Shown here one piece after another: positions 7,086-42,994 of a stretch of 64,000 nt of DNA (the first letter of the stretch is position 1; the number at the start of each line of letters is the position of its first letter). The DNA is from Microbulbifer thermotolerans (GTDB lineage Bacteria; Pseudomonadota; Gammaproteobacteria; Pseudomonadales; Cellvibrionaceae). Under the pieces are notes generated by a model that saw nothing but the letters and a program-made list of their open reading frames with translations, made no database searches and had not been told where the DNA came from. The stretch spans positions 186,001 through 250,000 of the forward strand of contig NZ_FOKT01000001.1 of NCBI RefSeq assembly GCF_900112305.1. The letters run 5' to 3'. The position numbers were made by a program, and so were the translations under genes.

Positions 7086-7264
7086 AGGGAACCTCTGATT
7101 AATTCGCGAGAACACTATGGTAGGTTCCGGGGCGCTCAGGCAACGGGATGGACATTTCAAAAACGCACGAGTACTTCCCTGTGGCTCCATCCTATCACCT
7201 GAGCTTCTCATCCTCTCCCCGAAGAACTACTGCCGTCAGGAAGCGGATTAATCAGAGGTTTCTT
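7086..7264 (+). mobile_element. MITE-like palindromic element, copy A (internally deleted)
   Basis: A 179-bp copy of a dispersed family. It begins AGGGAACCTCTGATTAATTC and ends with the inverted repeat ATTAATCAGAGGTTTCTT. Against the four full copies (214-217 bp) it lacks about 38 bp covering the inner hairpin and half of the right stem arm, with the junction at CTCC/CATCC. It lies between the TauE/SafE gene and the tRNA pair and has no credible coding content. Confidence 0.85.
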
Positions 7265-7359
7265 GGCACTTCGTAGCCCGCCAACTTAGCGCACACGAGA
7301 CTGTCGTGAGTTCAGGAATTCGCAAATGCGAGGCGCGGGGATGGAAGAGTAAGGGAAAA

Positions 7360-7434
7360 TGGCTGGGGCGGTAGGATTCGAACCTACGCATGACGGGATC
7401 AAAACCCGCTGCCTTACCGCTTGGCTACGCCCCA
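7360..7434 (-). tRNA. tRNA-Gln (anticodon TTG), copy 1
   Basis: On the minus strand this reads TGGGGCGTAGCCAAGCGG onwards, with the acceptor stem closed by CCGCCCCA, an anticodon loop TTTTGAT giving TTG, a TPsiC arm with GGTTCGAATCC, and an encoded CCA. It is 75 nt including CCA and is identical in sequence to the tRNA-Gln at 12790-12864. It lies 38 bp downstream of tRNA-Met and is probably transcribed with it. A T-rich stretch follows on the minus strand. Confidence 0.95.
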
Positions 7435-7472
7435 GTTACAGGACTGTGAATCATGGATTCACGGTTTGAAAA

Positions 7473-7623: not shown

Positions 7624-7653
7624 CCCCTGTTTTCGCTGTCTTTTCAGTAAGTT

Positions 7654-7870
7654 AGGGAACCTCTGATTAATTCGCGTGAACGCTTTGGCTAGTTCCGTGG
7701 CGCTCAGGCAATAGGATGGCCATTTCGAAAACGCACGAGTACTTCCCTGTAGCTCCGACGGATACATCCCTGTATCCGACGGTTTCGAAATGGCCATCCT
7801 ATCACCTGGGCTTCTCATCTAGCTCCAAAGAATTTTTACCGTCAGGAAGCGAATTAATCAGAGGTTACTT
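7654..7870 (+). mobile_element. MITE-like palindromic element, copy B (full length)
   Basis: A 217-bp copy with terminal inverted repeats AGGGAACCTCTGATTAATTC and GAATTAATCAGAGGTTACTT. The internal stem ATAGGATGGCCATTTCGAAA (7712-7731) pairs perfectly with its partner at 7783-7802 and encloses a smaller hairpin GGATACA-TCCC-TGTATCC. TA lies at both ends (7653-7654 and 7870-7871), compatible with a TA target duplication. It abuts relic B'. Short reading frames inside it recur in other copies and are not genes. Confidence 0.88.
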
Positions 7871-7963
7871 AGAGAAACTCTGATAAATTCGCGTGCGCGC
7901 TGCAGTCGGCTCTGGTCTTTAAGCCACTTTCCCGCCAGGAGGTGAATTAATCAGAGGTTCCTT
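7871..7963 (+). repeat. MITE relic B' (93 bp, termini only)
   Basis: The sequence begins AGAGAAACTCTGATAAATTC, a decayed left terminus, and ends GAATTAATCAGAGGTTCCTT, a good right terminus. The entire internal stem-loop is missing. It directly follows copy B. Its right terminus overlaps the 3' end of the DMT permease gene on the minus strand and provides that gene's stop codon. Confidence 0.75.
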
Positions 7964-12506: not shown

Positions 12507-12789
12507 TGAGAGTTCCTTTGGTTTTGTCTGGAAGTGAAATGCGGTGCGGATACCTGTAAGGGGTGGGTATCTGTGCTGTGCAGGAGTGATCCACAAGTGC
12601 GAGCGGAATCGGAATAGGGTTCAGCGTTCATCGCGATCGCGGGTCGCTCCCACAGGGAATTCGTCAGTTGGGGAATGGCCGGGACTCGGAGGGAGCTCAG
12701 TCTTTTGGACTCGCAGCCTCAGTGGCTTGCGGCTCGAACCGGTTGCGCCCGGCGGCTTCATTCGGGCATCGCTCCGCCCGAAAAAAAAA

Positions 12790-12864
12790 TGGCTGGGGCG
12801 GTAGGATTCGAACCTACGCATGACGGGATCAAAACCCGCTGCCTTACCGCTTGGCTACGCCCCA
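12790..12864 (-). tRNA. tRNA-Gln (anticodon TTG), copy 2
   Basis: A 75-nt gene on the minus strand, base-for-base identical to copy 1 at 7360-7434, with anticodon TTG and encoded CCA. Only 14 bp separate it from the ispE stop, so it is probably processed from the lolB-ispE transcript. This ispE-tRNA-Gln-prs order is the ancestral one known from Pseudomonas. A T9 run follows the CCA on the minus strand. The 283-bp spacer to prs shows no further gene. Confidence 0.96.
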
Positions 12865-12878
12865 GTGTATTTTGCGTC

Positions 12879-19756: not shown

Positions 19757-19970
19757 AAGGAACCTCTGATTAATTCGCGTGAACACTATGGTAGCTTCCG
19801 GGGGGCAGGCAATAGGACGGATATTTCGAAAACGCACGAGTATTTCCCTGTAGCTCCGTCGGTTACATCCCTGTATCCGACGGTTTCGAAATGTCCGTCC
19901 TATCGCCTGAGCTTCATATCCGCCCCTGAGAACTTCTGCCACCAGAAAGTGATTTAATCAGAGGTTCCCT
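19757..19970 (+). mobile_element. MITE-like palindromic element, copy C
   Basis: A 214-bp copy in the 305-bp gap between prmC and the CDF transporter. Termini are AAGGAACCTCTGATTAATTC and GATTTAATCAGAGGTTCCCT. The internal stem ATAGGACGGATATTTCGAAA (19812-19831) faces a partner at 19883-19902 with one T-G wobble. Compared with copy B, the changes on one arm are matched on the other. The right end lies 23 bp before the GTG of the CDF gene. Confidence 0.87.
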
Positions 19971-29197: not shown

Positions 29198-29413
29198 AGG
29201 GAGCCTCTGATTAATTCGCGTGAACACTATGGTAGCTCCCGGGGCGCTCAGGCAATAGGACGGGCATTTCAAAAACGCACGAGTACTTCCCTGTAGCTCC
29301 GACGGATACATCCCTGTATCCGACGGTTTCGAAATGCCCGTCCTATCACCTGAGCTTCACATCCGCCCCCGAAGCGCCTCTGCCGCCAGAAAGTAACTTA
29401 ATCAGAGGTTCCT
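29198..29413 (+). mobile_element. MITE-like palindromic element, copy D
   Basis: A 216-bp copy in the 407-bp gap between the gatB end and the acyl-CoA ligase start. Termini are AGGGAGCCTCTGATTAATTC and AACTTAATCAGAGGTTCCT. The stem ATAGGACGGGCATTTC (29256-29271) pairs with GAAATGCCCGTCCTAT (29331-29346) without mismatch; one mismatch occurs near the loop. At one position this copy has a G-C pair where copy B has C-G and copy C has A-T. Confidence 0.88.
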
Positions 29414-42778: not shown

Positions 42779-42994
42779 AGGGAACCTCTGATTAATTCGC
42801 GTGCACACTGTGGTAGGTTCCGGGGCGCTCAGGCAATAGGCTGGCCATTTCGAAAACGCACGAGTACTTCCCTGTAGCTCCTATGGATACATCCCTGTAT
42901 CCGACGGTTTCGAAATGGCCAGCCTATCACCTGAGCTTCTCATCTGGCTCCAAAGCGTTTTTACGTCAGGAAGTGAATTAATCAGAGGTTCCCT
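42779..42994 (+). mobile_element. MITE-like palindromic element, copy E (best preserved)
   Basis: A 216-bp copy with near-perfect termini AGGGAACCTCTGATTAATTC and GAATTAATCAGAGGTTCCCT, flanked on both sides by TA (42778-42779, 42994-42995). The internal stem ATAGGCTGGCCATTTCGAAA pairs perfectly with TTTCGAAATGGCCAGCCTAT. It differs from copy B at one pair (C-G in place of A-T). It sits between msrB and the orphan membrane-protein gene, ending 9 bp before that gene's first ATG. Confidence 0.9.

Follow-up and report, generated by a model that had tools for sequence, protein, structure and literature searches.

A YPAL/TwoAYGGAY-type hairpin element, a candidate CsrA ligand, carried by an IS5-type MITE in Microbulbifer thermotolerans

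The window, a 64-kb (64,000-nucleotide) stretch of Microbulbifer thermotolerans DNA, contains copies of a MITE, designated A to E, and a shorter relative. Throughout, the plus strand is the strand of the window as presented and the minus strand is its complement.

7088–7262, unstranded: copy A, a MITE deletion derivative without hairpin P2 (see below); its ends have 0 and 2 mismatches
7656–7868, unstranded: copy B, a complete 213-bp MITE; TIRs at 7656–7675 and 7849–7868; TTAG duplication at 7652–7655 and 7869–7872
7873–7961, unstranded: 89-bp short MITE relative, abutting the target duplication of copy B
19759–19968, unstranded: copy C; differing flanks, CAAA and CTAA
29200–29412, unstranded: copy D; TAAG duplication
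42781–42992, unstranded: copy E; CTAG duplication

The inverted ends of copy B are GGAACCTCTGATTAATTCGC, with TTAG on either side. The window also carries two copies of tRNA-Gln(TTG), at 7356–7436 and 12786–12866, as an identical 81-base block repeated 5.4 kb apart.

The MITE is abundant in its genome, which comprises 3.92 Mb in 30 contigs. A search with a 16-base piece of the MITE end, allowing up to 2 mismatches, yielded 372 matches (182 + 190); the reversed control yielded 0. The pattern for the central core of the element matched 70 + 72 times. Among the sequence stretches examined, we counted 98 full-length copies, each distinct; 89 measured 212 or 213 bp. Identical 4-bp flanks occurred in 70 of the 98 and were TTAA, TTAG, CTAA, or CTAG in 62 of those 70. 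A YTAR target duplication is the signature of the IS5 subgroup. Moreover, at two loci (L141 and L142), both at contig ends, the C-terminus of an IS5-type transposase (PF01609) lies beside the end GGAACCTCTGATCAAC, which differs from the MITE end by 2 mismatches in 16. The IS with MITE-like ends was seen in this genome in contig-end pieces, with no intact copy. Based on the inverted ends shared with the transposase element and the YTAR duplications, we classify the MITE as IS5-type. It resembles IS5-family MITEs in its inverted ends (GGAACCTCTGATTAAT), its 4-bp YTAR duplication, and the occurrence in the same genome of a related transposase end of IS5 type; unlike them, it carries a structured RNA-type element as cargo. 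A second DDE transposase was observed at two contig starts (G000 C5:53–460 and C6:53–460), with no MITE end near.

A first-pass annotation of the window had described a long hairpin in copy B whose stem covaries between copies while its loop stays nearly constant. This hairpin (7711–7802) is the middle of the 213-bp inverted-end element, which that annotation did not include. It consists of a long outer stem, P1, that encloses two short hairpins, P2 and P3. The features of copy B, and the corresponding elements found in the other copies with the covariance model R1 described below, are as follows.

7705–7808, minus strand: YPAL/TwoAYGGAY-type RNA element of copy B (model R1, 105.7 bits, E 1.4e-22)
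7711–7730, minus strand: 3' arm of P1, the 20-bp arm of the first-pass annotation (sequence, alignment A1, model R1)
7740–7751, minus strand: hairpin P3, with GGA in the loop; UACAGGGAAGUA on the minus strand
7755–7782, minus strand: hairpin P2, containing AUACAGGGAUGU, an exact match to RUACARGGAUGU
7783–7802, minus strand: 5' arm of P1 (sequence, alignment A1, model R1)
19806–19909, minus strand: RNA element in copy C (R1, 96.7 bits)
29249–29352, minus strand: RNA element in copy D (R1, 103.9 bits)
42830–42933, minus strand: RNA element in copy E (R1, 94.3 bits)

Copy A was not picked up by R1 in the scan of the window. In copy B, the 20-bp arm ATAGGATGGCCATTTCGAAA (7711–7730) paired with 7783–7802 with zero mismatches; the hairpin thus exists as described, except that the arm begins at 7711 and not, as annotated, at 7712. 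The details given for the other copies also held. Specifically, the stem of copy C has one T-G pair, that of copy D has one A-C mismatch beside the loop, and that of copy E is fully paired. At arm position 10, the pair is C-G in B, A-T in C, G-C in D, and C-G in E. The segment described as a conserved loop corresponds to P3 (7740–7751) together with 7732–7739 and 7752–7756. Its near-constancy was confirmed in the 98 full-length copies: the mean diversity of the loop core was 0.038, compared with 0.171 and 0.246 for the spacers, and was the lowest in the MITE, below even the MITE ends (0.059 and 0.121). As DNA, positions 7654–7870 folded with an energy of −60.4 kcal/mol, as against a mean of −24.3 kcal/mol for shuffled sequences (z = −11.1); as RNA, the z score was −10.1. 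With fold energies this far below those of shuffles, the hairpin is beyond chance.

The differences among copies B–E are subfamily states: the stem states that distinguish them at three pairs are common to 23, 34, and 39 of the 98 full-length copies. Each of the 98 copies was evaluated against its six nearest copies, as defined by the non-stem columns, for a total of 3166 pair cells. Relative to these nearest copies, 150 changes were one-sided and 18 were two-sided. Approximately 0.6 two-sided changes were expected, and all 18 were Watson-Crick; six of the 18 states were seen in a single copy only. The one-sided changes were near-symmetric (56 A-C and 45 G-U on the plus strand), indicating that individual copies decay without strand-specific constraint. 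The two-sided changes point to a single-step origin or to unsampled sources, and template switching, for which a mechanism is described in PMC8794818, fits them. Thus, arm-to-arm correction, which the first-pass annotation had named as a rival explanation, does contribute. Taken to its limit, this explanation holds that the stem pairing arises from replication copying one arm from the other and that the element itself lacks a function. The surplus of two-sided changes, the single-copy states, and the tolerance of 150 one-sided changes are all in keeping with it. Nevertheless, some of the two-sided states may stem from source copies outside the sample, and template switching leaves unexplained the near-invariant GGA loops beside a variable stem, the predominance of G-U on one strand among the P1 mispairs, and the near-constant loop spacing, all described below. 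As an account of the whole element, we consider it rather unlikely.

Selection on the structure was evaluated using elements outside the MITE. Alignment A1 comprised 67 non-MITE elements, gathered by patterns and without a model and aligned on the complement. These derived from 87 non-MITE core items, 74 of which passed the stem score; three were removed by length, two as near-identical, and two further ones (L182 and L196) on account of insertion or loss in P2. In A1, 93.4% of cells were paired and 35 of 41 pairs showed two-sided changes. The covariation score was 0.573, as compared with a mean of 0.152 in 500 shuffles and a maximum of 0.125 in slid versions. Unguided, RNAalifold predicted essentially the same structure from A1, with 36 pairs, 31 of which had two-sided changes. 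A covariance model built from A1, R1, was then the source of a second alignment, A2, containing 75 elements: all R1 matches in all 68 loci (L303–L370) of genomes from the class, with the M. thermotolerans genome excluded. In A2, 94.4% of cells were paired, a percentage that leans towards the model as the alignment was fitted to R1. The covariation score was 0.967, versus 0.197 for shuffles and a maximum of 0.179 for slid versions, and, of the 26 pairs of P1, 24 occurred in all four Watson-Crick forms. Most P1 columns were poorly conserved in sequence, so shared stem sequence is not what R1 found. Further pair types in A2 showed no clear excess over shuffles (40 of 500 shuffles reached the number).

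In both A1 and A2, the covariation score and the cells paired were higher than in any of the 500 shuffles or any slid version. The claim that the hairpin is selected, its loop conserved while its stem covaries, is supported for the class of elements, as represented by the 67 non-MITE and 75 class-wide members. It is weaker for the window copies B–E, whose stem states are common to many copies and whose family tolerates the 150 one-sided changes. Both of the explanations originally offered, a selected hairpin and arm-to-arm correction, are therefore partly supported. Further evidence of compensatory change came from nine Microbulbifer genomes that share what appears to be an orthologous site (read in 12 loci, three of them repeats). 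At this site, five P1 pairs differed two-sidedly; locus L115 had a G-U intermediate on the minus strand and L113 a G-G mismatch. A few unpaired changes occurred in P2, for example in L114 and L212. A possible alternative hairpin, GUAY-NN-RUGC, which overlaps P3, had 17 two-sided cells but showed no gain over controls in pair number or pair types. A tandem wobble, U-G and G-U on the minus strand, was observed near the foot of P1 (A1 columns 6/103 and 7/102) in approximately half of the stand-alone elements and in most MITE copies.

The P1 mispairs were not distributed equally between the strands. In A1, excluding the two tandem-wobble columns, they comprised 51 G-U and 15 A-C on the minus strand; 26 rows had more G-U and three had more A-C. 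The corresponding values in A2 were 65 G-U and 21 A-C (33 and five rows); the model may slightly favour G-U in A2, whereas A1 was gathered without it. In P2, there was little or no asymmetry, the ratio of G-U to A-C being 8:4 in A1 and 8:8 in A2. A cruciform or template switching should give similar numbers of G-T and A-C, so the P1 data point to a single-stranded minus-strand molecule. Moreover, sense-strand deamination would be expected to push the mispairs the opposite way wherever the plus strand is sense. The complement, rather than the plus strand, is therefore probably the strand that folds. The first-pass annotation had left the choice between RNA and extruded DNA; the asymmetry favours an RNA-like single strand on the complement over a symmetric structure. 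It makes a plain DNA cruciform unlikely, while a strand-specific DNA hairpin still fits. The structure, the strand signal in P1, and the kinship described below are all well supported; the element is a genuine structure of the RNA type, under selection and akin to YPAL/TwoAYGGAY.

Gene context counts against the minus-strand reading, as tandem genes favour the plus strand as the sense strand. Contexts were classed for 50 of 66 Microbulbifer-type and 43 of 75 class-wide elements, the others lying within ORFs or having no flanks. Between tandem genes, the plus strand was sense in 31 cases and the minus strand in 16 (p = 0.04); the 31 represent 17 class-wide and 19 Microbulbifer-type cases less five repeats of one apparently orthologous site, any other repeats being retained in the count. 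Gene neighbours were convergent in 18 of the 50 and 13 of the 43 classed cases, and both strands may be transcribed there. Finally, gene ends, based on mechanically called ORFs, made up 62 of the 100 flanks of the 50 Microbulbifer-type elements. These data raise the possibility of a 3' UTR hairpin that protects or ends the upstream mRNA, whichever strand is sense, with the loops incidental. The prevalence of gene ends and the tandem bias are consistent with this, and in Yersinia the YPAL repeat, a relative of the element (see below), was reported to be expressed with upstream genes and possibly to affect the stability of the upstream transcript (PMC2229807). Any stable hairpin would serve this role, however, which leaves the near-invariant A(N)GGA loops and their spacing across families unexplained, and the P1 mispairs favour the minus strand. 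We judge a 3' UTR role of this kind to be unlikely.

The loops were among the best conserved parts of the element. On the complement, the best conserved columns of A2 were CANGGA in the P2 loop, the AGC linker, CANGGANG in P3, and parts of UUYAC-GCGU. The P2 loop contained A(N)GGA in 66 of 67 rows of A1 and 71 of 75 rows of A2. The P3 loop contained ACANGGA in 65 of 67 and 55 of 75 rows, respectively, the A1 value being inflated by search patterns that held P3 letters, which did not affect P2; the shorter CANGGA was present in P3 in 71 of 75 rows of A2. Loop conservation in A2 is partly selected, as these elements were gathered with a model containing both loops. As an internal control, UUUCGAAA in P1, which the model also prefers, was mostly lost in A2. 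Taking the two alignments together (142 rows), 110 rows matched CANGGANG at both sites, and all but one of these (109) had 19–21 nt between the GGAs. Among the full-length MITE copies, 82 of 98 kept both sites.

These features match those of CsrA ligands. The SELEX consensus for CsrA is RUACARGGAUGU, in which ACA and GGA are invariant, mostly presented in hexaloops, and one CsrA dimer bridges two sites 10–63 nt apart, as set out in PMC7652899 and PMC4347634. The elements present A(N)GGA in hairpin loops, with two sites within 10–63 nt. P2 of copy B is the exact consensus (AUACAGGGAUGU) and P3 retains ACAGGGA; the exact consensus occurs in 69 of the 98 MITE copies. The GGA of the linker was considered as a third CsrA site and rejected: although GGAGC is the norm in the Microbulbifer-type set, other elements often have CGAGC.

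The core corresponds to a palindrome already known as YPAL/RU-2; the source that prints the RU-2 sequence assigns it to the YPAL class. When folded, the printed 168-nt RU-2 sequence gave the same P2, linker, and P3 as copy B, on the same strand: P2 is CGCGCC-AAGGAU-GGCGCG, the linker GAGC, and P3 UACAUGGAUGUA, UUUACGGCGU. According to PMC2229807, YPAL is a repeat that abounds in intergenic regions of Yersinia, lies next to dyad symmetry, and is flanked by 3–26-bp target duplications. Like YPAL/RU-2, the element reported here is a dispersed intergenic repeat with two GGA hairpins in a long palindrome. In contrast to YPAL/RU-2, the core here lies within an IS5-type MITE that has its own ends and YTAR duplication. 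The MITE as a whole is mostly 212–213 bp long with 4-bp duplications, the corresponding values for YPAL/RU-2 being approximately 168 bp and 3–26 bp.

Two orphan RNA families in Rfam are also related. Ysr224 (RF02770) shares the core, giving sub-threshold matches in six of 11 and seven of 20 loci; its gathering score of 70 was not reached in these loci, the best matches being 34.5 bits (L246 and L320). Unlike the minus-strand reading, Ysr224 was modelled on the plus strand, as seen in the alignments at L246 and L241. For TwoAYGGAY (RF01731), a single locus among the 20 class-wide ones scored above the threshold of 43 bits, namely L323 with 45.2 bits on the complement; a second relative came near the threshold on the same strand. 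The elements of the window did not reach RF01731, and L108 and 10 relatives gave no match to it at E 5. As in the element described here, TwoAYGGAY comprises two GGA-loop hairpins in a poorly conserved outer stem, on the same strand. PMC2864571 gives gut samples, gammaproteobacteria, and Clostridiales as its sources, and the passages on it there and in PMC4333381 do not describe it as a mobile repeat. On the basis of motif matches, Gardner and Eldai had already predicted CsrA binding by TwoAYGGAY (PMC4333381). The idea of CsrA binding thus has an independent precedent for one branch of these elements. By comparison, CsrB, RsmY, and RsmZ share the GGA-containing hairpin loops and the presumed sequestration of CsrA, but are distinct sRNA genes with many sites, whereas the present element is dispersed and has two. 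Rfam searches gave no match to these RNAs at E 5 (11 loci) or E 0.5 (20 loci). In the open-licence literature, we found no paper tying YPAL or Ysr224 to CsrA, nor one linking the TwoAYGGAY-CsrA prediction to YPAL, Ysr224, or a MITE.

The core also occurs outside the MITE. A search of 38 genomes drawn from the species itself, its genus, and its order matched 13: that of M. thermotolerans and 12 more, every one a Microbulbifer. In those 12, no listed match extended to the MITE ends. A scan for the exact core pattern yielded 37 stretches in Microbulbifer, Cellvibrio, Photobacterium, and other or metagenome-derived gammaproteobacteria; in most, the same two loops were enclosed by a long outer stem with a sequence peculiar to the element. 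In a few non-MITE elements, P2 was lost or expanded. With R1, matches at E ≤ 0.001 were obtained in 35 of 185 genomes sampled across the class, including that of M. thermotolerans. A virus collection contained 0 exact matches to the core pattern. Neighbouring stand-alone elements were sometimes paired in opposite orientation (L136, L174, L178, L241, L243, L246, L247, and L256). Further hairpins with GGA-type loops were nested in P2 loops or adjoining spaces (L206, L182, L126, L175, and L196), as if palindromes had been inserted into palindromes.

The dispersal of the elements, several as inverted pairs, suggests that the hairpins could serve a transposase as single-stranded DNA substrate, in the manner of REP sequences and RAYT, with the loops as its recognition site. 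Many elements start with GGTGGCG on the plus strand, and the mispair asymmetry indicates that one strand matters. However, PF01797, the Y1 transposase, was absent from three genomes that contain the element (G011, G021, and G048, with 11, 18, and two core-pattern matches, respectively). In the M. thermotolerans genome, moreover, the MITE ends together with the YTAR duplications explain how the element moves, and the identity of the loops to the CsrA consensus would be a chance match for a transposase site. Given the missing PF01797 in the three genomes, we reject a RAYT/REP origin as the main account, and we regard a transposase-substrate role for the hairpins as quite improbable.

We also evaluated the occurrence of csrA (PF02599), which was found in the M. 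thermotolerans genome and in 42 of 48 Microbulbifer genomes. Six near-complete Microbulbifer genomes (G017, G018, G039, G040, G050, and G054) had no PF02599 match. A protein search of these six for CsrA returned nothing convincing (best E 0.15), compared with 5e-29 in the control, G011. Two of the six, G017 and G018, are each a single contig and 100% complete, and contain one element each (L119 and L117, respectively), with GGA kept in both loops. Three readings fit these two genomes: loss of the regulator, with the element left behind as a relic; a csrA gene that is withheld or masked in the data; or a partner other than CsrA. Across the class, 159 of 185 genomes had csrA, as did 32 of the 35 that bear the element (Fisher p = 0.08). 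It was present in all 27 element-bearing genomes that are at least 90% complete; the three element-bearing genomes without it are 67–88% complete. Because csrA is nearly universal in the class, this co-occurrence is weak evidence.

Overall, the explanation that we favour, with moderate confidence, is that the core is a CsrA-binding RNA element of the YPAL/RU-2/TwoAYGGAY kind, read from the minus strand and hitchhiking in an IS5-type MITE. In such an element, P1 would be free in sequence and bound in pairing, holding together two short hairpins whose loops show A(N)GGA, usually with 19–21 nt between the GGAs, a layout that a single CsrA/RsmA dimer could clamp. Judging from loop motif and spacing, binding of CsrA by the minus-strand RNA is somewhat probable; it presupposes that this strand is transcribed. 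An element of this kind, scattered in many gammaproteobacteria, became cargo of an IS5-type MITE in this Microbulbifer, and the MITE multiplied it to approximately 100 or more copies. The predicted effect is that CsrA is titrated or that neighbouring mRNAs are placed under CsrA.

More tentatively, YPAL-type palindromes in general may be dispersed CsrA/RsmA decoys or docking sites, and the MITE-multiplied double site may have rewired or titrated the entire Csr network of this one Microbulbifer species; we regard this broader proposal as possible but doubtful. It joins what the papers searched had left unlinked: the mobile YPAL repeats, the orphan RNAs TwoAYGGAY and, on the other strand, Ysr224, and CsrA/RsmA. 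If it is true, bacterial genomes hold from one to more than 100 mobile CsrA sites, the counting of Csr regulons changes, and the MITE offers a concrete example of how sites for a global post-transcriptional regulator can be spread by a transposon. The elements are also a natural data set for separating selection on pairing from template-switch correction.

Finally, the number of csrA genes varied among the Microbulbifer genomes. Many had one, and another six of the 48 (G056, G009, G055, G042, G003, and G059) had 10–27 each, based on PF02599. No core-pattern match was found in those six genomes. In G056, locus L371 (G056:C1:637500–656500) contained several near-identical csrA ORFs of 58–61 aa, in repeated cassettes within an Rhs/YD-repeat-like island.
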